From Magnolia sinica (Eukaryota > Streptophyta > Magnoliopsida > Magnoliales > Magnoliaceae), in assembly GCF_029962835.1 (NCBI RefSeq), contig NC_080574.1, forward strand, positions 21,240,001 through 21,304,000: a stretch of 64,000 bases of DNA, given 5' to 3'. A program made the translations under genes and the position numbers. How positions within the stretch are numbered: position 1 is the first letter of the stretch; each line of letters opens with the position of its first letter. Positions 6,037-22,650 of the stretch are shown one piece after another. A model generated the notes under the pieces. The model did not search any database. It saw nothing but the letters and a program-made list of their open reading frames with translations, and was not told the DNA's origin.

Positions 6037-7671
6037 TCAATATCTCAAGACAGATTTGCTATCATTTTCTGGTAGTTCCAGCAAGTGTCAACGTAAGAAA
6101 TCTGCAAATTGTCTTCAGGATACAATGAACTCTCAATTTGAATTTCAACACAAAAATTTGCATATTTAAGTGTTGAACAGATCTCTAGATTTGACACCGA
6201 TACGCCTTTAAGATGTTCAGAAAAAACTTAACAAGAGGTCAGATCGAAAGTATTTGCGTAGAAGATGATATAATTTTAAGAATTAAGAGTAGTATCTTCT
6301 AGATTATAGTATCCAGGATTTATATCAATTGAAGAGTCATCTTCCAAAAGAGATACTAATGTGCCTCTTCAAAAAATTCATACTCATTCATAACAATCAA
6401 TTCTCTTTCATGAGAAGACACAACTCTTTGTCATATGGCGATTATTTCTGTACCCATTCAGATAGAAATAGTTATCCAACAGGAAAAACTATAGCCAAAT
6501 GTTCTAATTATTTTAATTGTTACCACATAAGCAACACGTGGTATAGGTGCCACATGTATAATCATGTCACAGTCACTCTCAATCAACACTAATGTTAAAA
6601 TACTTTAGACCTTAGTCCAATTCAAGTTGCACCATAGCTCAAAATGATTTGAACCAGTGCCAAAAAAACTAAGACTTTTTTGGCTCAATGCGAAGTGCAT
6701 CTAATAAAGCGCCCAAGCAGCCCACCCTACGCAAGCAAAAACTTTTCTCTTAACATTTGACTGTTAACTCTATTTATGAAAAGTTTTAATTATTAATATA
6801 TTTATTTACTTATTAAAATAAATCTTTATTTTTAAAATTTAGTTTTTATTTTAAAAAACACAACAGATCAGAGCTATTCTAAACTCAAGAGGCCTTCCTA
6901 AGAAAGATTTAATTTGAATTGATAAATGTGCACAAAGATGAGTTGGGAACATTGAAGTGTAAATTTTTAATGGCTTATATTCAAATCCAAAATCAAAGGT
7001 CAGGATCATTAATGAATCACGATGGTAAGATCATAGCTTTTATGAGATAGTAATAAAAAAGAGTACGAACTGTTCATATCATCATCTAAAATCCAATCTA
7101 AATGAAAACCAGCCCTCGCGTTGAACCACTGCATTACTTCAGTAGTTGCAATTTGAGTCTTGTTTGGTGATCTAAACCGTTGATCTGGCCAGATAGAGAT
7201 ATGATCGTGGCTTCCTAGAAAATCTTTGATCAATGGGTAACAAAATAATGGTGCAGGACATTGTTCATATTTAAATACGAAAATAATTAAAATATTGAAG
7301 AGTTTGAATAATTATAAAAAGGGACCCTTTTGGGTATACTCCATCCACGGTGACGCCCATTGTATAAACGGTTTAGATCGTTGGGACGTGAACCCAAATC
7401 CAACGGCTATAGTTCGGATGTTTCCTGCAACAATACGTAGGGATTGAGATGGAGCATGTAAGTTAGATTTGACACAACTTTCGGCCGTCCATTATAGGGA
7501 ACTAAAGTCCCATCCAAATAAAGGAAGAAAAATCACGAGAAGTTTCCGACTGTACGACCCATTTATGGCCCATTCCCGAGACGAAGCCCGCCTCATTTTA
7601 CTTTCGAAGAATAAGCCCCAGATGTACGGACGCCTTCCAAAAGGTCGATAATGCCTCTGGTTTTTCCTTCA
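6037..7671. other. Gene-free stretch
   Basis: There are only short frames without recognisable motifs. The longest, 6329-6592 on the plus strand, shows no family signature and no splice context. AT-rich at 6770-6860. I see nothing to annotate. Confidence 0.4.
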
Positions 7672-8165
7672 AGCGGATCAGCTGGTGCTCGAGGACGAGC
7701 GCTCTCCGAGTTGTACGAACGGTTCAAAGGAGATCAACGCTACATGTGCCTAACAGTTATGTATTTATTATATCCACAACGTTCATCAATATTTTGAGAT
7801 CATTTCGGAGCATTATCCAAAAATAAATAAAATCATATGCAAAGATCAACTGGACCACACCACAAAGAGCAGCGGAAAATTGATTTTCACCGTTGAAACT
7901 TTGTAGGGCCCACCATAACATTTGTTTTCCGTCCAACCTATTCATAAGGTCACAGAGACCTGGATGAAGAGGAAAAACAAATTTCGTAATTCCGTAACCC
8001 CTAAAAGGGTTTCAACGGTATACGGTTCAATTCCCCACTGCCTTTTCAGTGTGGTCCACTTGATAGTTAGATATATCTTATTTTTCGTCTCAAGCTTTAA
8101 TATGAACTTGCCAAATAGATGGACGGTTTGGATATAACACAGACCTCATGATGGGACCCACAAAA
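7672..8165. mobile_element. Partial Mutator-like MITE (AGCGGATCAGCTGGTG end)
   Basis: The left end AAGCGGATCAGCTGGTG resembles the GGAAGCGGATTGGCTGGTG ends of the elements at 19851 and 48162. The inside follows the same plan: a 'gttcaaaggagatcaa' block, a GTGGGCCC-type block near 7910, and a closing CTCATGATGGGACCCAC near 8150. The right terminal repeat is missing, so this is a truncated copy. Confidence 0.5.
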
Positions 8166-8471
8166 ACAATACAGGGAAAAAGAAATGCTAAGGAAGTTTG
8201 GCAGATTTATTTATTTTATTTTTTGTTTCTTGTTTACGGGGAGAACTTTTTCTCCGTTACAATTTTCTCAAATACATAAATATGTATATATAAGTATATA
8301 AAAATATTTTTCTATCTCTCAATTCATTTCTTTGTCTAATTATTTAACAAGCATATCTCCTAAACTAATGAGTTACTTAACGTACCATATATGATTTTAG
8401 GACAAGAGAAGCTAATTTAGCCAACCAACATAGTAATTTTTTAAGATTCCATCGGGTCGATGGTTAAAAGT
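8166..8471. other. AT-rich flank of the satellite array
   Basis: T-rich and TATATA-rich sequence with no frame or repeat of note. It abuts the tandem array directly. Confidence 0.4.
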
Positions 8472-11400
8472 CCACTTCACGGTCAATTCACTTCACTTCA
8501 TGGCCATTTTCATGCACTTCACGGTCATCTCACTTCACTTCACCATCATTTCCATGCATTTCACGGTCATTCCCGGCGATTCCGTGTTAATTCACGGTCA
8601 ATTCGACGCACTTCACGGTCAATTCACTTCACTTCACGGCCATTTCCAGCACTTCGCGGTCAATTCACTTCACTTCACCGTCATTTCCATGCATTTCACG
8701 GTCATTCCCGGCGATTCCGTGTTGATTCACGGTCAATTCACTTCACTTCATGGCCATTTCCACGCACTTCGCGACCAATTCACTTAACTTCATCGTCATT
8801 TCCATGCATTTCACGGTAATTCCCCGCGATTTCGTGTTGATTCACGGTCAATTCAACGCACTTCACGGTCAATTCACTTCACTTCATGGCCATTTCCATG
8901 CACTTCGCGGTCAATTCACTTCACTTCACCGTCATTTCCATGCATTTCACGGTCATTCCTAGTGATTCCGTGTTGATTCACGGTCAATTCGACGCACTTT
9001 ACGGTCAATTTACTTCACTTCACGGCCATTTCCACGCACTTCGCGGTCAATTCACTTCACTTCACCGTCATTTTCATGCATTTCACGGTCATTCCCGCCA
9101 ATTCCGTGTTGATTCATAGTCAATTCGATGCATTTCACAGTCAATTCGATGCACTTCACGGCCATTTCCATGCACTTCACGGTCAATTCACTTCACTTCA
9201 CCGTTATATCCATGCATTTCACGGTCATTTTGGCGATTCCGTGTTAATTCACGGTCAATTCGACGCACTTCATGGTCAATTCACTTCACTTCACGGCCAT
9301 TTCCACGCACTTCATGGTCAATTCACTTCACTTCACCGTCATTTCCATGCATTTCACTATCATTCCCGGCGATTCCGTGTTGATTCACGGTCAATTCGAC
9401 ACACTTCACGGTCAATTCACTTCACGGCCATTTCTACGCACTTCGCGGTCAATTCACTTCACTTCACCGTCATTTCCATGCATTTCACCGTCATTCCCGG
9501 CGATTCTGTGTTGATTCACGGTCAATTCGATGCACTTCACGGTCAATTCACAACCATTTCCACACACTTCGCGGTCAATTCACTTCACTTCACCGTCATT
9601 TCCATGCATTTCACGGTCATTCCCTGCGATTCCGTGTTGATTCACAGTCTATTCGACGCACTTCACGGTCAATTCACTTCACTTCACAGCCATTTCCATG
9701 CACTTCACGGTCAATTCACTTCACTTCACCGTCATTTCCATGCATTTCACGGCCATTCCCGGCGATTCCGTGTTGATTCATGGTCAATTGGACGCACTTC
9801 ACGGTCAATTCACTTCACTTCACGGCCATTTCCATGCACTTCGTGGTCAATTCACTTCACTTCACACCCATTTCCATGCATTTCACGGTCATTCCCGGCA
9901 ATTCCGTGTTGATTCACGGTCAATTCGACGCACTTCACGATCAATTCACTTCACTTCACGGCCATTTCCACGAACTTCGCGGTCAATTCACTTCACTTCA
10001 CCGTCGTTTCCATGCATTTCACGGTCATTCTCGGCGATTCCGTGTTGATTCACGGTCAATTCGACGCACTTCACGGTCAATTCACTTCACTTCACGACCA
10101 TTTCCACGCACTTCGCGGTCATTTCACTTCACTTCACCGTCATTTCCATGCATTTCACGGTCATTCCCGGCGATTCCGTGTTGATTCATGGTCAATTCGA
10201 CGCACTTCACGGTCAATTCACTTCACTTCACGGCCATTTCCACGCACTTCGCGGTCAATTCACTTCACTTCACCGTCATTTCCATGCATTCCACGGTCAT
10301 TCCCGGCGATTCCGTGTTGATTCACGGTCAATTCAACGCACTTCACGGTCAATTCACTTCACTTCATGTCCATTTCCACGCACTTCACGATCATTTCACT
10401 TCACTTCACCGTCATTTCCATGCATTTCACGGTCATTCCCGGCGATTCCGTGTTGATTCATGGTCAATTCGACGCACTTCACAGTCAATTCACTTCACTT
10501 CACGACCATTTCCACGCACTTCGCAGTCAATTCACTTCACTTCACCGTCATTTCCATGCATTTCACCGTCATTCCCGGCAATTCCGTGTTGATTCACGGT
10601 CAATTCGACGCACTTCACGGTCAATTCACGGCCATTTCCACACACTTCGCGGTCAATTCACTTCACTTCACCGTCATTTCCATGCATTTCACGGTCATTC
10701 CCGGCGATTCCGTGTTGATTCACGGTCAATTCGACGCACTTCACGGTCAATTCACTTCACTTCATGGCCATTTCCATGCACTTCGTGGTCAATTCACTTC
10801 ACTTCACTGTCATTTCCATGCATTTCACGGTCATTCCCGGCGATTCCGTGTTGATTCACAGTCAATTGGACGCACTTTACGGTCAATTCACTTCACTTCA
10901 CGGCCATTTCCACGCACTTCATGGTCAATTCACTTCACTTCACACCCATTTCCATGCATTTTACGGTCATTCCCGGCAATTCCGTGTTGATTCACGGTCA
11001 ATTTAACGCACTTCACGGTCAATTTGACGCACTTCACTTCACGACTCAATTCACTTCACTTCATGCCCATTTCTATGCATTTCATAGTCATTCCCGGCAA
11101 TTCCGTGTTGATTCACGGTCAATTCAATGCACTTCACGGTCAATTCACTTCACTTCACGGCCATTTTCACGCATTTCGCGGTCAATTCACTTCACTTCAC
11201 CATCATTTCCATGCATTTCACGGTCATTCTTGGCGATTCCGTGTTGATTCACGGTCAATTCGACGCACTTCACGGTCAATTCACTTCACTTCACGCCCAT
11301 TTCCATGCACTTCGCGGTCAATTCACTTCACTTCACGCCCATTTCCATGCATTTCACGGTCATTCCCGGCAATTCCATGTTGATTCACTGTCAATTCGAC

Positions 11401-12499
11401 ACACTTCACAGTCAATTCACTTCACTTCACGCCCATTTCCACGCACTTCATGGTCAATTCACTTAACTTCACCATCATTTCCATGAATTTCATGGCCATT
11501 CTCGACGATTCCGTATTGATTCACGGTCAATTCGACGCACTTCACGGTTAATTCACTTTACTTCACGCCCATTTCCACGCACTTCGCGTTCAATTCACTT
11601 CACTTCACACCTTCATTTCCATGCATTTCACGGTCATTCCCGGCAATTCCGTGTTGATTCACGGTCAATTCAACGCACTTCACGGTCAATTCACTTCACT
11701 TCACGACCATTTTCATGCACTTCGCAGTCAATTCACTTCACTTCACCGTCATTTCCATGCATTTCACGGTCATTCTCGGTGATTCCGTGTTGATTCACGG
11801 TCAATTCGACGCACTTCACGGTCAATTCACTTCACTTCACGGCCATTTCCACGCACTTCGCGGGCAATTCACTTCAGTTCACGCTCATTTCTATGCATTT
11901 CACGGTCATTCCCGGCAATTCCATGTTGATTCATGGTCAATTCGACACACTTCACGGTCAATTCACTTCACGCTCATTTCCACGCACTTCGCGGTCAATT
12001 CACTTAACTTCACCGTCATTTCCATGAATTTCACGGCCATTCTTAGCGATTCCGTGTTGATTCACGGTTAATTCGACGCACTTCATGGTCAATTCACTTC
12101 ACTTCACGCCCATTTCCACGCACTTCGCGGTCAATTCACTTCACTTCACGCCCATTTCCATGCATTTCACGGTCATTCCCGGCAATTCCGTGTTGATTCA
12201 CGGTCAATTCGACGCACTTCACGGTCAATTCACTTCACTTCACGCCCATTTCCACGCACTTCGCAGTCAATTCACTTAACTTCACCGTCATTTCCATGCA
12301 TTTCACGGCCATTCCCGGCGATTCCGTGTTGATTCACGGTCAATTCGACGCACTTCACGGTCAATTCACTTCACTTCACAGCCATTTCCATGCACTTCGC
12401 GGTCAATTCCCTTCACTTCACGCCCATTTCCATGCATTTCACGGTCATTCCTGGCAATTCCATGTTGATTCATGGTCATTTCCATGCATTCCGTGTTTT
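8472..12499 (+). repeat. 136-bp satellite array, about 30 units
   Basis: A continuous tandem array. The unit is 136 bp and splits exactly into six related 21-bp monomers (for example ACTTCACGGCCATTTCCACG+C, ACTTCGCGGTCAATTCACTT+C, ATTTCACGGTCATTCCCGGC+G) plus a 10-base spacer, ATTCCGTGTT. I count 30 spacers between 8579 and 12460, mostly 134-142 apart, with a few short units (for example near 9420 and 10620) that lack monomers. In the last third, units alternate between GGCAATTCC and GCGATTCC variants, giving a 272-bp dimer. The array is unusually CpG-rich for its surroundings. It has no protein function: 136 leaves a remainder of 1 when divided by 3, so each reading frame rotates and stays open over about three units, producing regular chance frames of about 309 or 405 nt. 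Confidence 0.95.
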
Positions 12500-12500
12500 T

Positions 12501-12680
12501 TGTTGCTGATAGATGTCTTAAATATGTCAATGAGGGTTCGATGACACCGAACTAACTTCGATGTCATTGAAGCCAATTTGACGACATCGAAGTCGGTCGA
12601 TGCCATCGAAGTCGGTTGATGCCATCGAGTATTTTTTGGATTTTCGCCCCTGCTCGCTAGACATATTTTGTCATTTTGTC
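12501..12680 (+). mobile_element. 5' fragment of copia-like LTR inside satellite
   Basis: It begins TGTTGCTGATAGATGTCTTA, closely matching the start of the solo LTR at 23325, and shares the following 'cgatgtcattgaa' and 'gccatcgagtattt' blocks and the 'agacatattttgtcattt' block. It stops where satellite monomers resume at about 12681. Satellite lies on both sides, so the LTR probably inserted into the array and then lost its 3' part. Confidence 0.6.
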
Positions 12681-12833
12681 ATGCCCATTTCCATGCATTT
12701 CACGGTCATACCCGGCGATATCATTTCCACGCATTTCACGGTCAATTCCCTTTGCTTCACGGTCATTTCCACGCATTTCACGGTCAATTCGCTTCACTTC
12801 ACGGTCCATTCCGCTGATTCCACGTCATTTCTA
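12681..12833 (+). repeat. Detached satellite remnant
   Basis: Diverged copies of the 21-bp monomers (CATTTCCATGCATTTCACGG, CATTTCCACGCATTTCACGG) continue for about 150 bases after the LTR fragment, without the regular 136-bp order. It is the eroded distal end of the array. Confidence 0.75.
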
Positions 12834-12924
12834 CATATGATGGCCCACCTTGTCGCACTCTCTCGTCCATTGACATCTCCTGCACCCCCTTCTATATGTA
12901 AACTGAGCTCCTTACTGGGTAGAC

Positions 12925-15820
12925 TGTCATGCCCCAAACTCGAAAACTGGGCCCACAAAATTCTTGATCGCCGAATCCGGTGCTGACAGCCTCCGTAATA
13001 CCCCATTCTCGGCTCCCAGCGTATATACGCCAGATTCCGATCCTGGGATCCTACAAGGAGGATTTTCCAACGTACATTTATCTCGTAATGAGCATAACCA
13101 CAAGATTACCCAAATCACAAAAGCAACATCATCATCACATATCCACTAATATAATCGTTTGAGTACAATACTGAAAGGGAAATACATATATAAAATAAAT
13201 GAAAGCTCCAGAAGACCGCTGCACGCTTCGGGCTCAATGCTGCTGCAACTTAACATCACCTGCACGCATCTATTGTGCATAAGCTTATAGAAAGCTTAGT
13301 GGGTGGTGAAAGTGTGTGCATAAGATAAGTGCTAAGTAAGCAATATCAGAGTAATCAGAGCAAGCGGAAATACTGATAAACCCATAATCATACAATATCA
13401 GAAACACTAGCAAGATCATAAATCATACGAAATCAGAGTAATGCGAAAATATGCGGTGAGTCCATGAATGTTATCAGCTGTACCAAAGCTTTGTGATGCA
13501 AGGCATGAATACTATCGGCCATACCAAGGCCATGCGATATGAAACATAAAAAGACAATAACAGATGCTGAGGATACAATGCAATATGGAAATCCAGATGA
13601 GTCCACGAATACCGTCAGTTGTATCTAGATCATATAAATGCATAAACATAGTAACCCGAAATGCCATATGCGGCGGATGTAATGCGATATGCGGTGCGAA
13701 TGGAATGACCATGCTAGAGTGTGAGGTCGGGATGATAGTACGTAGTATCGCAGACTACGGGGTCCACCACAAGGGACTTCTATCCAAACTAGTCCCATAC
13801 CTAAATTTGGATAGTCAGACTCAATGTGATAAACTCCTAATCTCAGGTTAATTGCGCACCTAACCGAAATCCTGGTCATACGAAGGTACACGTAATAAAT
13901 AGTTACGCACCACCAGCCCGAATGGATAGTGAATGAATGATTGAATGAATATGAAATTCCTGCTCAATAAGTCCACATATCAGTACGGTTACTCTCTGGG
14001 AAATCACCGGGGTCTATTACACTCCAAACCAGGTTGCCGCCCCATCGCGCGCAACAAGGTGAGTGGAAGAGACCTCACTATCCGCCTGCCAATATCGGGC
14101 CCGACTCGTCGATAGTGGACCCATTCCTCGAGCTGGTCAGACTCAGCCTAGCATTGCCACCTCCTCTCGGGCAGGTAAGGCCGTACCCCTTTCCAACCGA
14201 CCACGACACAGTGGGAGACGCGACCTAACGGTATACGGCTCTCATGCGCTCGTGCATCCACTCGGTCTAGACGTTGGAGCAACCTCTAGAACCAAGAGGG
14301 TTTAGGGACTTTCACCCAGGGATATCTATAGCACCCCATGTAGAACAGATTTTCGGTATCCCATCTGGCCATCCACGATAAGCCTGTGGAGGCTACGACC
14401 CTGTTGTTGCTAGGGCGTACAGTAATCATAATGCAAGATGCATGAGTTATACAATCCAGTCATGCATCAATCCTGCGCATACCGTGTGCTTATGTGAGAT
14501 TACTTCCGCCTATCAGGGAGTCTCATAACAACATGCTCAATGACATATGTAATGATCAACCTCATCTCATAACAAACATGCAGATGATGCGTATGAGCAT
14601 GTATCATGATGCTATGCTATCACATACTCGTAATCTGTATCAACAATTAGCCTTGACGATGTGGACATTTAACTAACATTACCCCCAAGGAATGGCCCGC
14701 ATAGAGCTTACCATATAGTGGACCCATGGCCGCACACAAGGGCCTAGTATACAACATCATATGCCTCACTCAAGAGCTTAATACATCATAATGGGCCTTT
14801 CACATGGGCCTCACATACATTACATAAGCCTTAAATGCATCAGGCCGAGGCCGAATGCTCATCAGAATGGACCTCAATAGTAGGAATTGGCAATCGGAAT
14901 CAGCCTCGATGATTAACCTCGATAATCGGCCATAATAATCGGAACTGATCAATAATTGGCCTCGATGATCGGAATCGGCAATCGGCCATAACAATCGAAA
15001 TTGATCGATAATTGGAATCGGTAAATCGGACACGAGAATCGGATCGATCGATAATTAGAGTTGGCAAATCGGTCACGTCAATCAGAATTGGCAATCGGCC
15101 ACGACAATCGGGATCAATCAATAATCAAAGTTGGCAAATCGGTCACGTCAATCAGAATCGGCAATCGGCTACGACAATCGGGATCGATCGATAATCAGAG
15201 TCGGCAAATCGGTCACCTCAATCAGAATCGGCAATCGGCCACGACAATCGGGATCGATCGATAATCAGAGTTGGTAAATCGGTCACGAGAATCGAATCGA
15301 TCGATAATCAAAGTCGGCAAATCGGTTACGAGAATCGGCTGAGCAAAGCCTAAGGAAAGGTCACAATGTGGACATTTAACCATCATTGCCCATCAACGTG
15401 GACATTCAACCAATATTGCCCCCAAGGAGTGGCCCACATAGGGCTAAACATACAGTGGACCCACGACCTCATACAAGGGTCTAATATACGTCACCATGGG
15501 CCACGACCCATGATCCACAAATACATCATAATGGGTTGTGACCCATGGGCCTCAATATACATCAAGTGGAGTGCATTAATGAGTCTCATATACACGACAG
15601 GTGGGCCCTGTACATGGGCCTCAAACACAGCATGCGGGCCCTACACTTGGGTCTCACACACATCAAATGGGCCTTGCTGATAGACCATGAATATGTCACA
15701 ATGGGCCGTACTAATGGGACTCAAACACATCAAGTGGGCCTCATACTTGGGCCTTATGTATATCAAATAGGCCATATCAAATGGGCCACTGCAGCTACAC
15801 CATTCATCCATTTGTAGAGA
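12925..15820 (-). mobile_element. Long gypsy-type LTR, copy B (inverted)
   Basis: It starts on the plus strand with TGTCATGCCCCAAACTCG, the reverse of a GGGGCATGACA terminus, and runs as the inverted counterpart of 120-2863. The 12960-13200 block mirrors 2620-2860, the 14340-14460 block mirrors 1430-1560, and the 'aatgtggacatttaac' blocks near 15370 and 14660 mirror 660-710 and 1200-1230. No pol sequence adjoins it. It may be a solo LTR or the edge of a deleted element. The far boundary near 15820 is approximate. Confidence 0.55.
15020..15340 (+). repeat. 70-bp tandem repeat, about 4.5 copies
   Basis: A 70-base unit (GGCAAATCGGTCACGTCAAT ... CAATCGGGATCGATCGATAA) repeats at about 15062, 15132 and 15202, with further diverged copies to 15340. 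It lies inside LTR copy B. Confidence 0.85.
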
Positions 15821-16290
15821 TCACTTTAAAACATTATCCAGACAAATAAATCATATCAAAAGATCATCTGGACCATACCACGATTAACAGTGGAGATAAT
15901 AATTGTCATCGTTAAAATATTAAGGGCATGCCACAGGAAGCCGTGGGAGTAGCCACACCCACCGTTAAAACATTTATAGGACCCGCTGTGATGTACTTTG
16001 AGATCTAACATATTCATCAGTTAAATTTTATAAAGTGAAAACAAAAAAAAATATCAGCTCGCTTGGAAGGGCTATGGCCCTTAAGAATTTTTGAATGGTG
16101 GATGTCACTGTCCCCATTATTTCAAATGGTGGGGTCCGTTAGAATTCCAAATCTAACTCATTCTTTTACTCGTGCCATAAAACAATCTCTCAAATGGTTG
16201 GATGGTATGGCTATGGCACATGCATCATGGTAGGTCCCACCGTCCAAATCTGGACAGTGTGGATAAGACCCATATATCATAGTGTGCTCC
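15821..16290. mobile_element. Relic of the GTGGGCCC MITE family
   Basis: It contains the family's internal blocks: 'atctggaccataccacgatt', 'ccgtgggagtagccacaccc', a 'gtccccattatttcaaatgg' part and a final 'acatgcatcatggtaggtcc'. The closest relative in the window is 54520-54840. Terminal repeats are not recognisable. Confidence 0.4.
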
Positions 16291-17680
16291 TCAGATGGAT
16301 GGACAGGAGGTAAACATCATCAAGGTGGGTCACTGCACAGACAGTGCAGATACAATACTACATCATGGTGGGCCAGACGGTGTAAAGGAAACACATACTA
16401 TTAAGATGGGTCTCACGGAACTTGCTGACGTCCGTCAGCCAAACAGATGGATGGTGTTGTTAAAAATTCGTACATCACGTGGTACACCAGGTACGGACGG
16501 TGTGTATTTCACATGTCCAGGCAGGAGTTCCACCGTCCAGAACATATGGACAGTGAGGACGCAAGTCAAATACAGTAAGGTAGGTTCCCACGTGGGGCCC
16601 ACCAACCCATACATATATATATATAACAAGTACATTATATTATCACATATATTATATAATATTCTTTTTTTTTTTTGTCTTTTAAAGCAACTTCCAGCAT
16701 CCAGGCGATCAGTGATCTGGATTGGCTGCAACTACCGTGCAGCCCACATGTGCTGGATCTGGACCGTTGGTGTGGTGGCAACACATATATCATAGTGGGT
16801 CTCACATGGCTCGAACGGTCTGGATGAGACACGTTTATGGGTCCCACGTGCAAGGACAGTGTGGCTCACAATACTCACACCACGTGGGCCACTCAAATGG
16901 ACGGTTAGTATACAACACATACCTCGTGATCACAGAACTTACTGTTGCCAAAGCAGCAGCCAATGGCTGACTGGTCACCACCGTTCCGTGGACGGTGGGA
17001 TACAATACATACCAAGGTGGGTCCACGTCAGTGTGGCCCACAACATCTGATCAAGCTGATGTTCGTGTTTTGCCACTGTCCAGGGCTACTGGACGGTGAG
17101 GATGGGACACATACCACACGTACACGTCCATAGAGCCTGGTGGACGTCTGTGACAACATCTGCCTAGCTGTACGAGGTACACCAGCCACCCCTTTCTCCG
17201 AATCAGGTGGGTCCCACGTGGGGCCTTCCACATATATTATAATATAATATTATTTAATATTTTGGTTATTATTATTATTTTTATTTATTTATTTTGAAAT
17301 GGGGCAACGTCCAGGCCTTGTAGACGTTCTGGACAGCAGGCCACCCAGCCATCCCTGGCCCATCTGGCCGTTGGATTTGGCCACTGATGGATGGTCTAGA
17401 TATGTAGTGCATACGATACAGGTGGGGTCCACATCAACGTGGTCCACTCGATTTGGATCAAATTGATACTTGTGTTCTCATCCATGTCAATAACTGCTAC
17501 TGAACAGCAACCTGTCCAGCAGAATGTGGGTGCCTGCCCAACTTTTTGAATGATCAGGGGATGGGCGGTGAGGATGGAAGGCATACCTCAAGGTGACGTC
17601 CACATAAGTGGGCCACACGGCCCCGGGATCAAGCGTGTTTCCATATAGGTAGGCCTGTATGGCCGCTGAACGTCCAACAC
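16210..17680. repeat. Degenerate repeats, LTR-like region
   Basis: Units of about 100-130 bases recur with diverged order: 'gtccagg...ctggacggtgaggatggga', 'acacatacca...aggtgggtcccacgt'. Two AT-rich strings (16610-16680 and 17228-17300) each follow a 'cccacgtggggcc' word, suggesting a diverged duplication about 620 bases apart. The 166-codon frame across 16295-16795 shows no family and consists of these repeats. It may be part of an old LTR; I cannot place ends. Confidence 0.4.
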
Positions 17681-18480
17681 TTGGACAGCAAGGGCGTCCT
17701 TGCTGCTGGACGGTCCAGATTCCCCTCACATTCATTGGGTGAGCCACGAAATATGGGAAGGAAAGAGAGGGAGAGAAAGAGAGAGGGAGAGAAGCACCCA
17801 CCTCAAGGCTCTAGATCTCCTTCTCCTTCCACCTTCGGTCTTCTCAGCTTCAAGGGAAGGATTTTAACGGTGGAGATGGGATTTGGAGGGTTGGATTAGG
17901 AGGGGCTAAAGCTTGAAGTTGCTAGATGTGGGAGCTTTCATGGCCGGTTGGAGATTTCAAGCCATAAAAATGGAGAAGGAGAGAGAGGGGTAAGAGAGAG
18001 ATATGTAATGATGGCTTTGTAAGGCCATCATTAATTGTAAGGAGGCATGTCATAATGAGGTATAAGACAATCAATGCTTTGACTAAAAAGCAATGATGAC
18101 TTTGGGTGATGTCACCCCAGTTGAGAATGATGTCATGTGATAAGTGGGTCCCGCAACATGCGGTCCACGACCTTTATAGTGCGCGGGCTACAACTTATGA
18201 TCTAGACGTCTGATTGGCGCACGAGACGCAACATCGGAACCACGGCGACGACGCGGTCGCAATGGCGCAGGTTTAGGGCTAAATTGCTTCGGGTTTACAG
18301 GATGGAACTCAAGGTCATGCGCAAATGAAATTTAAGGGTTGCAAGTCGTTGAAATTTGACCGGAAGGACCGTGGGATCCTACGGAACGAGATGGACACTA
18401 GGACACGGGCTTGACATACACGGTGGCCCCACTTCCTCCACTTGGAATCCTTAACCAGAACATGATGACGGCCATTTATC
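17681..18480. other. Purine-rich, possible LTR transcript-start region
   Basis: 17755-17795 is a GGGAGAGAAAGAGAGA-type purine run; 17960-18020 repeats this. The rest holds no coding frame. The layout resembles the R/U5 part of a plant LTR, but this is inference only. Confidence 0.25.
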
Positions 18481-18887
18481 TTTGAATCGATGGAGTAACA
18501 TACCCTCCAGTACATTACCATTTCCTTCTACCCCTTTAAAAAAATCAAGACTCTTGATTGGTGGAATAACATATCTTCTAAATCACTACCATCTCCTCCC
18601 CCTTCATGCAAATAGAGATTCTCAATTGGAAGATGGTGGCCTACCTTCTCTACTTCAGATTCTCCACCAGATGATAAAATTAACCCTTTCTCTATTGATG
18701 AAAATGATGTCTCCAAATTGGTATGGAAATAAGAAGCTCAAGTGGGCCACATGATAGAAAACAATGGATATTGAATGTTGTCACAATGAAAAACAGTTGG
18801 GGTCTAACCCGGTCGACCCAACTAGCTAGACAGTTACCCGGTCGACCGGGATGAAAAGGCAGGGGCATTTTCGACGTGAGAAATGGG

Positions 18888-18973
18888 GCCGTACAGTTGG
18901 GGCTTATTCTTAGGAGGTAAAAAGCGAGTGGCCGTACAGCCGGGGCTTATTCTTGGGAGGTAAAAAGCGAGTG
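18888..18973 (+). repeat. Two 43-bp direct repeats
   Basis: GCCGTACAGTTGGGGCTTAT followed by TCTTAGGAGGTAAAAAGCGA is repeated 43 bases later with three or four changes. A partial third word, 'cgtacagttgg', occurs near 19007. There is no gene around it. Confidence 0.75.
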
Positions 18974-19510
18974 GGCTTCAAAAGGTTGATGGGCCATATA
19001 TGGGTCGTACAGTTGGAAATTTCTCCAAAAATCACCGTTGGATCCAGCTTTGTCTAAAGAATCCCATGCTTTGCCGGATCACCGTGGCTAGTACGGGCCA
19101 CCTTGATGCATATGATTCCATCCACTCCGTCCATGTGGATTTGCAAACTCATTTTAGGCCGTGATCTTTTAGAAACCTAGTTTGATGGAGCATGGATAAT
19201 CACTAATAACCATTACCCAAACTCTAACTCAACTTAAGCTACAAGCTATTCTAAGCAATTAACTAAGCTAATTCACACCTAAACCATTTTCAAGCCAAAC
19301 CCATACCCAAACTATTACTTAAACCAAACCATTTTCAAGCTAAAATCAGATAGGGGTAAAACAGCCAATTTCTCAAAGATAACATACCAAAGAAGATCTA
19401 CTAAGGGGAGGTTCTCACAATAACCCAAACCAGAAGGAGTGTCTTTGTAATTGTTAGCAAATAGAGGGGAGTCCGTTGATAACTTTAATGGGTGGGAGAT
19501 CCTACCCGTC

Positions 19511-20999: not shown

Positions 21000-22650
21000 G
21001 GGTGCGGATTAGTTACATCCTTACCATGGGGTCCACCTTGATGTATGTATTATATGTCCACACTGTCCATATCATTTTAGCACATAAACCCAAAAATGAA
21101 GTAGATCCAATTCTCAGGTGAACCATACCATAGGCAGTAGTGGTGATTGACCATGAATGGGCCACAAAAGTTTTGGATCAAGCTAACATTTTTTTTCCTT
21201 ACATCCAGATTTTTGTGACCTTATCAACAGGTTGGATGGTAAAATAACACTATAGTGGCCCCCAAGAAGTTTCTAATGGCAGGGCATTCAATCACCACTG
21301 TTTCCTATCATATGATCCACCTGAGATTCGGATGTTCTTCATTTTTTGTGCCCATACACTGGAATAATCTGGCAAGTTTCTAATGGCAGGGCATTCAATC
21401 ACAACTGCTTTCTGTAATATGATCCACATGAGATTTGGATTTTCTTCATTTTTTGTGCTCATACATTAAAATAATGCGGCAAGTTCTAATGGTAGGGCAT
21501 TTAATCACCACTGTTTCCTATAATATGATCCACATGAGATTCAAATCTTCTTCATTTTTTGTGCTCATACATCAAAATAATTTGGCAAGTTTCTAATGGT
21601 AGGGCATTCAATCACTACTGTTTCCTATAATATGATCCACATGAGATTTGGATTTTTTTTTTTTCATTTTTTGTGCTCATACATTAAAATAATATGGCAA
21701 CTTTCTAATGGTAGGGCATTCAATCACCACTGTTTCCTATAATATGATCCACCTTATATTTGGATCTTCTTCATTTTTTGTGCTCATACACTAAAATAAT
21801 CTGGCAAGTTTCTAATGCTAGGGCATTCAATCACCACTGTTTCCTATAATATGATCCACCTGAGATTTGGATGTTCTTCATTTTTTATGCTCATACAGTA
21901 AAATAAACTGGCAAGTTTCTAATGGTAGGGCATTCAATCACCACTATTTCCTATAATATGATCCGCCTGAGATTCGGATCTTCTTCATTTTTTGTCCTCA
22001 TACGCTAAAATAGTCTGGCAATTTCTAATGGCAGGGCATTCAATCACCACTGTTTCCTATAATATGATCCACATGAGATTCGGATTTTCTTCATTTTTTG
22101 TGCTCATACATTAAAATAATATGGCAAGTTTCTAATGGTAGGGCATTCACTCACCACTGTTTCCTATAATATGATCCACCTGAGATTCGAATCTTCTTCA
22201 TTTTTTGTGCTCATACACAAATAATCTGGCTAGTTTCCAACGGTAGGGCATTCAATCACCACTGTTTCCTATAATATTATCTACCGGAGATTCGATCTTC
22301 TTCATTTTTTGTGCTCATACACTAAAATGATATGGCAAGTTTCTAATGGTAGGGCATTCACTCACCACTGTTTCCTATAATATGATCCACCTGAGATTCG
22401 AATCTTCTTCATTTTTTGTGCTCATACACAAATAATCTGGCTAGTTTCCAACGGTAGGGCATTCAATCACCACTGTTTCCTATAATATTATCTACCGGAG
22501 ATTCGATCTTCTTCATTTTTTGTGCTCATACACTAAAATGATATGGGAAAATGGTTGCGGCCTGGATATAGAATACATACATCAAGGTGAGCCCCACATT
22601 AAGGGCTGCATCAATTTGGGTGAGGCTGGAGCGGTGCCTAATCCGCTCCC
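21000..22650. mobile_element. Mutator-like MITE enlarged to 1.65 kb
   Basis: The left end is GGGTGCGGATTAGTTACATC; the right end, read inverted, is GGGAGCGGATTAGGCACCGC. Flanks AGAATAATA (20991-20999) and AGATTAATA (22651-22659) form a 9-base target duplication with one mismatch. Inside the ends are the family's 'ggggtccaccttgatgtatg' and 'catacatcaaggtgagcccc' inverted blocks. The usual length is about 510 bp; the excess is an internal minisatellite at about 21270-22550. Confidence 0.85.
21270..22550 (+). repeat. 107-bp minisatellite inside a MITE, 12 units
   Basis: The word GGGCATTCA or its close variant recurs at 21282, 21389, 21494, 21602, 21713, 21821, 21928, 22033, 22141, 22246, 22352 and 22457, a period of 105-111. 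Each unit carries 'accactgtttcctataatat', 'gatccacctgagatt' and 'cattttttgtgctcatac'. The last four units are two near-identical 211-bp dimers. The unit is a stretch of the normal MITE body. Confidence 0.92.

Follow-up and report, generated by a model that had tools for sequence, protein, structure and literature searches.

The window analysed here, a stretch of 64,000 nucleotides from Magnolia sinica (contig NC_080574.1, positions 21,240,001 to 21,304,000 of the forward strand), contains a tandem array with nested periods that the original prediction described as a three-level, centromere-like satellite of 21-base monomers, 136-base units and 272-base dimers. Is the array a satellite of this kind, or does it belong to an element with a different way of spreading through the genome?

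Results

The array is a nested tandem repeat

Tandem Repeats Finder (TRF) placed the array at 8473–12482/12497 and recovered all three periods, 21, 136 and 272 bases. When the array was cut at the spacer ATTCCGTGTT, we counted 30 units, as against the roughly 30 foreseen, and a 31-base remnant; 20 of the 30 units are exactly 136 bases long, and their mean pairwise identity is 0.912. The 136-base consensus consists of six related 21-mers and the 10-base spacer, that is, exactly 6 x 21 + 10, the composition read originally from the letters, and the description of the array as a hierarchical tandem repeat is supported. Pairwise, the six consensus 21-mers agree at 12–20 of 21 places (mean 0.708); when the sequence was shuffled 5000 times by two-base blocks, this value never exceeded 0.375. 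Monomers 2 and 4 (20/21) and 3 and 5 (18/21) are the closest, and because these pairs are the most alike, a 42-base level is also present.

The array occupies one arm of an element with inverted termini

The array is one part of an element that spans 7537–19026 (Table 1) and has inverted GAGAA(A/G)TTTCC termini. Homology to other copies stops near 7537 and at 19026, and most alignments to these copies start at about 7527–7538. The window copy is one-sided, with ~4 kb of array in its left arm and a right end made up of ~180 bases of terminal repeat without any array; the two ends are unlike (71% identity over 190 bases). In most ends compared, the terminal repeat contains the MITE-like segment of the flanking domain (it was not seen in the short left end of locus C6), and segments resembling it are scattered nearby in both orientations. 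The insertion that interrupts the inner domain is 5.5 kb long and solo-LTR-like, with TGTCA...TGACA ends and near-identical 5-base flanks (TAGAC/TACAC); it encloses a 70-base tandem array (15015–15299, TRF), and a relative of it occurs elsewhere in the C19b locus.

Table 1. Parts of the element in the window and the sequences that flank it (window coordinates).
Feature	Position	Strand	Evidence or remark
Left target-site duplication AAAAATCAC	7528..7536		Identical 9-mer at 19027–19035
Outer flanking domain of left terminal inverted repeat; starts GAGAAGTTTCCGACTGTACGACCC	7537..8472	+	Alignments, aligned termini
Self-complementary MITE-like segment in flanking domain	7740..8165		Matches own reverse strand and, in both orientations, many other places
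Satellite part of terminal repeat, 30 units, consensus 136 bases	8473..12466	+	TRF, unit cutting, alignment
Alternating units, GGCAATTCC versus G(C/T)GATTCC types	11097..12459	+	Parity, run and linkage tests
31-base array remnant	to 12497	+	Follows 30-unit array
Inner domain, degenerate array remnant at 12679–12812	12498..12924	+	12500–12923 is 85% identical to C1 copy
Later insertion, not part of element	12925..18416		Missing at matching C1 place, where flanks abut
Inner domain, continued	18417..18847	+	86% identical to C1 5963–6372
Short right terminal inverted repeat without array	18848..19026	-	94 bases at 79% to left terminus; end cluster 4
Right target-site duplication AAAAATCAC	19027..19035		Found with right end shifted by one base

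Outside the element, the window holds a separate tandem array at 21267–22546 (12 copies of a 107-base unit, or six 213-base dimers, by TRF), a frame with a zf-RVT domain (PF13966; 30685–31809, plus strand) that is probably a LINE-type remnant, and a 698-aa open frame with an F-box domain (PF00646; 33307–35403, minus strand), likely an ordinary host gene.

Other copies share the ends, the layout and the target duplications

A search of the genome (1.84 Gb) with 11097–12459 returned at least 156 matches, with 33 of 3711 candidates scored, and many of the array matches form opposite-facing pairs a few kilobases apart. We read 22 array-found loci, the window included, and in these one layout recurs: a unique flanking domain of ~0.9 kb is followed by an inward-facing array, a variable middle and often the reverse of the same. 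Arrays of at least 300 bases occur on both strands in 14/22 of these loci, with varying arm lengths, while 8/22, some of them read in short stretches, lack 300 bases of array on one strand. Since some loci hold more than one element (C6 and C18a), arrays on both strands need not belong to a single element. Judged by eye, one common flanking motif precedes the array in 26/27 edges, the right edge of C17 being the exception. At least one end was detected with a 36-mer in 20/22 array loci, and the remaining two (C19a and C1b) gave flanking-domain or end matches.

The converse search used the first 203 bases of the end, which contain no array, and gave at least 40 matches of 1709 candidates. Four of the 40 listed ends were fetched (L036–L039), one of them chosen for two ends lying 6.4 kb apart, and all 4/4 copies carried, on each strand, array sequence of at least 300 bases. 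Transposon ends or the flanking domain lie beside the array in each of the 26 loci read. These loci make up a small share of the copies in the genome and were picked out by their close likeness to the window copy.

Paired ends were available in 11 copies (7 of the 22 array loci, the other 15/22 being without an end pair, and the four end-found copies). Six of these are flanked by perfect 9-mers (C17, C13, L038 and L039 and, after a one-base shift of one end, the window and C2c), four by imperfect duplications (C18b 8/9, C7 8/9, L036 9/10 and C6 8/10), and one, L037, in which the first ~47 bases are missing, by none. The four best of the seven array-locus pairs scored 7.8–9.0, compared with a maximum of 7.4 in 196 cross-pairings, and the weak duplications are near chance, a score of 4.8 being reached by 3/196 cross-pairings and that of the weakest pair, 3.4, by 8/196; for the end-found copies, the maximum of 12 cross-pairings was -0.6. 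Both features of the foldback class, namely long inverted termini with tandem repeats and a target duplication, are therefore present.

All 30 ends compared have GAGAAATTTCC-like termini and fall into four clusters, one of them a singleton. Left–right identity within a single element ranges from 71 to 95%, and an element's left and right ends often differ in kind: clusters 3 and 4 are paired in C17, C13 and C18b, 1 and 4 in the window and 2 and 1 in C7, while C2c pairs 1 with 1 and C6 pairs 4 with 4.

The arrays are short and dispersed

The 26-mer at the unit junction occurs 10,632 times genome-wide (5451 + 5181) with up to 2 mismatches, compared with 0 for the reversed control, and 468 of these occurrences lie within the 22 array-found loci. 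At 136 bases each, the array total comes to ~1.4 Mb, less than 0.1% of the genome, a figure that misses decayed units. When 30 of the 31 listed array loci (all except C16) were binned, arrays were present in every tenth along the contigs. The longest continuous array in the 26 loci read, where several arrays run off the edge of the stretch and which lie outside denser places such as C1:44.32–44.33 Mb, measures ~4.4 kb. Long homogenised arrays concentrated at centromeres, the mark of a centromeric satellite, were not found among the loci listed, whose arrays are short, dispersed and little homogenised. The proposed search of the assembly for other arrays did find many, mostly inverted pairs bounded by transposon ends. 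A separate observation concerns C1:44320623–44334952, where exact junction 26-mers in both orientations are distributed along 14 kb; several of these elements may be clustered or nested there. Among the paper titles listed in literature searches, none fits a satellite or foldback family already described with this sequence.

Units differ almost as much within an array as between arrays

We compared 453 units of 105–145 bases from 49 arrays of at least three units. Identity was 0.902 within arrays and 0.889 between them, and 8.4% of units had their best match in their own array, compared with 2.6% expected by chance. The gap between the two identities is small but real (0 of 500 label shuffles), and because within-array similarity exceeds chance, homogenisation is weak rather than nil. 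Neighbouring units are no more alike than distant ones, all lags from 1 to 8 giving 0.900–0.907.

Unit length is exactly 136 in 358/453. Unit sizes and spacings of 136, 115, 94, 73 and 52 bases, found in L036–L039 and the array loci, differ by steps of 21, and this ladder corresponds to the 10-base spacer with 6, 5, 4, 3 or 2 monomers; the off-ladder lengths among the 453 units are 135 (27), 131 (13), 137 (8), 141 (5) and 126 (5). Transitions, scored against the consensus rather than a known ancestor, amount to 13.4% of site-units at CG, 8.5% at CHG, 3.0% at CHH and 1.1% at A/T, and the CG/CHG excess is the pattern expected of long-methylated plant transposons. Since units are nearly as different within as between arrays and show CG/CHG decay, the array probably predates the spread of the element, with decay setting in afterwards. 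Most simply read, the data suggest that the array was built a single time, was carried along as the element spread, and has undergone mostly decay from then on.

Alternation of two unit types is a local feature of the window

The original prediction also held that eleven successive units alternate without a break, and this proved real. At the position preceding the spacer, units u19–u29 carry A G A G A G A G A G A in turn. The parity statistic was equalled in 44 of 20000 order shuffles, and the longest alternating run of the window array, 11 units, was matched in 33 of 5000 shuffles; the unit alignment therefore shows alternation beyond chance in this block, and no parity effect in u01–u18 (6236 of 20000). 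The G/A marker is itself a CpG-decay site, and it is linked to a second difference, CACCGTC versus CACGCCC/CACACCC. Among the 424 of 453 units classified (the other 29 were of neither type or without A/G at the marker), CCC-type units had A in 69/79 and GTC-type units had G in 300/345 (table 69/10 versus 45/300). Because the marker and the second difference are linked across units, two unit types exist, and the linkage of GATTCC with CACCGTC and of AATTCC with CACGCCC/CACACCC indicates that they are old.

The 272-base dimer inferred from this block stands as a local alternation, but not as a general feature of the arrays. We ran run and parity tests on the 31 arrays with at least six units. 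In the run test the window stands out; the next-longest runs were those of C19b (run 8, 358 of 5000), C13 (run 7, 418 of 5000) and the 7-unit C3a array (501 of 5000), and those of C19b and C13 were not significant after 31 tests. The whole-array parity test gave low values for C1b (16 of 1000) and C6 (44 of 1000), about the chance expectation for 31 tests, and 182 of 1000 for the whole window array. In the eight arms of L036–L039, alternating runs did not exceed 4. Alternation as a rule across arrays was not found, being strong only in the window among the 31 arrays, and we reject a 272-base level for the family as a whole on these arrays and the arms of L036–L039. A 544-base, four-unit level, suggested by eye from variants common to u21/u25/u29 and u22/u26, was likewise rejected, as it fell short of significance when parity was preserved (1619 and 989 of 20000), and so was collinear descent of the alternating block in C1 or C19b, where the best registers lay only ~0.01 above the mean. 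What we see as a 272-base alternation seems to be a local ordering of the two old unit types, which may have arisen by local duplication of a pair made of one of each.

Length of the duplications and sequence of the ends suggest a probable Mutator-like element

Target duplications of 9–11 bases characterise Mutator-like elements, and those of Galileo/P and hAT elements measure 7–8 bases. Our clean copies have 9-base duplications, and the 30 ends compared belong to long terminal inverted repeats whose outermost bases are conserved, as in Mutator-like elements. No transposase was found between the ends in the copies examined. Frames outside the arrays were collected from the first 16 loci (at least 150 aa), the window, the four end-found copies and the last 7 stretches (at least 130 aa); of the 10 compared with Pfam, a comparison that smaller or interrupted genes may escape, 9 had no match and 1 matched cytochrome P450 and lies outside the C19b element. 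The MULE domain PF10551 gave at least 150 scored matches of 1104 candidates in the genome, many with open frames. An autonomous copy was sought by the nearness of a MULE match to an end, and the nearest pair among the matches and ends listed is 54 kb apart (125 of 150 matches and 39 of 40 listed ends, on contigs in common; the C41 end and 25 matches fall outside this set). Since no transposase was found between the ends, the assignment to Mutator rests on duplication length and end sequence, and the element is most likely moved in trans by a Mutator-like transposase.

Discussion

We consider it very probable that the array forms the inner, tandem portion of a foldback transposon's long terminal inverted repeat, the transposon being one with 9-base duplications and no visible transposase gene that is most likely Mutator-like and moved by a transposase encoded elsewhere. 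The element ends, the target duplications, the inverted pairing of arrays and their dispersal were all seen directly in the copies analysed. For the history behind them we propose that a 21-mer in an ancestral terminal repeat was duplicated, from 21 to 42 to 136 bases, and that the array was already in place when the element spread. Unequal exchange would since have lengthened and shortened the arms, in many cases by 21 bases or a whole unit at a time, while copies became methylated and decayed, and the copy in the window would be a one-sided form that was later hit by the 5.5-kb insertion.

The alternative that survives best keeps the element and assigns it to another cut-and-paste superfamily, as with Galileo in the P superfamily. 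We regard this as unlikely, given that clean copies have 9-base duplications, a size associated with Mutator-like elements, and that the genome contains many MULE frames. Such an assignment would nonetheless accommodate the fact that no transposase is tied to the ends, and the foldback shape is common to unrelated transposase classes, going by Galileo and PMC3169594. The original reading as a centromeric or heterochromatic satellite, whose higher-order repeats are kept alike by ongoing homogenisation, would account for the clear nesting of periods (21, 136 and, locally, 272 bases) and for the slight similarity within arrays. Arrays that, in the loci read, are short, dispersed, mostly arranged in inverted pairs and furnished with transposon ends and target duplications, units that are hardly more alike within arrays than between them, and an alternation that is local make it extremely improbable, and we have abandoned the centromere-like interpretation. 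Nor do we give any appreciable credence to a free satellite repeatedly invaded or flanked by transposons whose ends adjoin arrays by chance, common as transposon invasion of satellites is in general, since a single flanking motif precedes nearly all array edges and is inverted at the two ends, the target duplications lie outside the whole element and the search with the end alone led to arrays in every copy fetched.

The foldback element has its closest known counterparts in Tetris, Tm1 and FARE, a likeness of architecture, by description rather than by sequence. The FARE elements of Arabidopsis, which resemble the Magnolia element in their plant foldback architecture as described, reportedly carry long palindromic repeats at both ends and are said to be classed now with MULEs. 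Tetris, a foldback transposon of Drosophila virilis, is apparently non-autonomous, makes 8–10-base duplications and varies in repeat number, and its terminal repeat runs from an outer flanking domain (up to 866 bases) through tandem repeats to an inner domain, the same succession of parts as in the window (PMC4079207). It differs in its ~220-base repeat and its animal host, the Magnolia unit being 6 x 21 + 10, and its repeats are described there as also forming longer, more alike satellite-like arrays, whereas we saw no long free array in 26 loci. Tm1, a Mutator/foldback family of root-knot nematodes with 9-base duplications and arms of unequal length, likewise has terminal repeats that consist mostly of short tandem repeats in variable number (PMC3169594); unlike the Magnolia element, it has a ~14-base motif and known members with a Phantom-like transposase, and the available text of that report mentions no higher-order unit such as the Magnolia array possesses. 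In the plant MULEs with tandem terminal repeats described in PMC3310237, whole long terminal repeats were duplicated and such elements multiplied, whereas in Magnolia a 21-base piece was amplified to kilobases inside the terminal repeat.

Could the array have a function in the transposon end instead of being carried along passively? We hold this to be improbable, but it is worth setting out. Because 21 bases make two helical turns and the 10-base spacer one, the 136-base unit corresponds to thirteen turns, and the shorter units (115, 94, 73 and 52) also keep to the helical phase. In that case one face of the DNA would present CACGG-type motifs for kilobases, and the transposase, or a host protein involved in pairing or silencing the ends, might use the array as its landing strip. 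What speaks against this reading is that 18/453 units measure 131 or 141 bases and are half a turn off. A binding role would be plausible by analogy with Galileo, whose internal tandem repeats are stated in PMC4079207 to hold additional transposase binding sites.

The Magnolia element would be an example from a plant, counting about ten thousand unit junctions, of a tandem repeat that arose and was dispersed within the end of a foldback transposon, a route to satellite DNA that the authors of the Tetris work proposed for Drosophila (PMC4079207). Little homogenisation has affected the arrays since their spread, so they may preserve an early, transposon-bound stage of a satellite, and a handsome repeat hierarchy in a short stretch of DNA need not mean a centromere.
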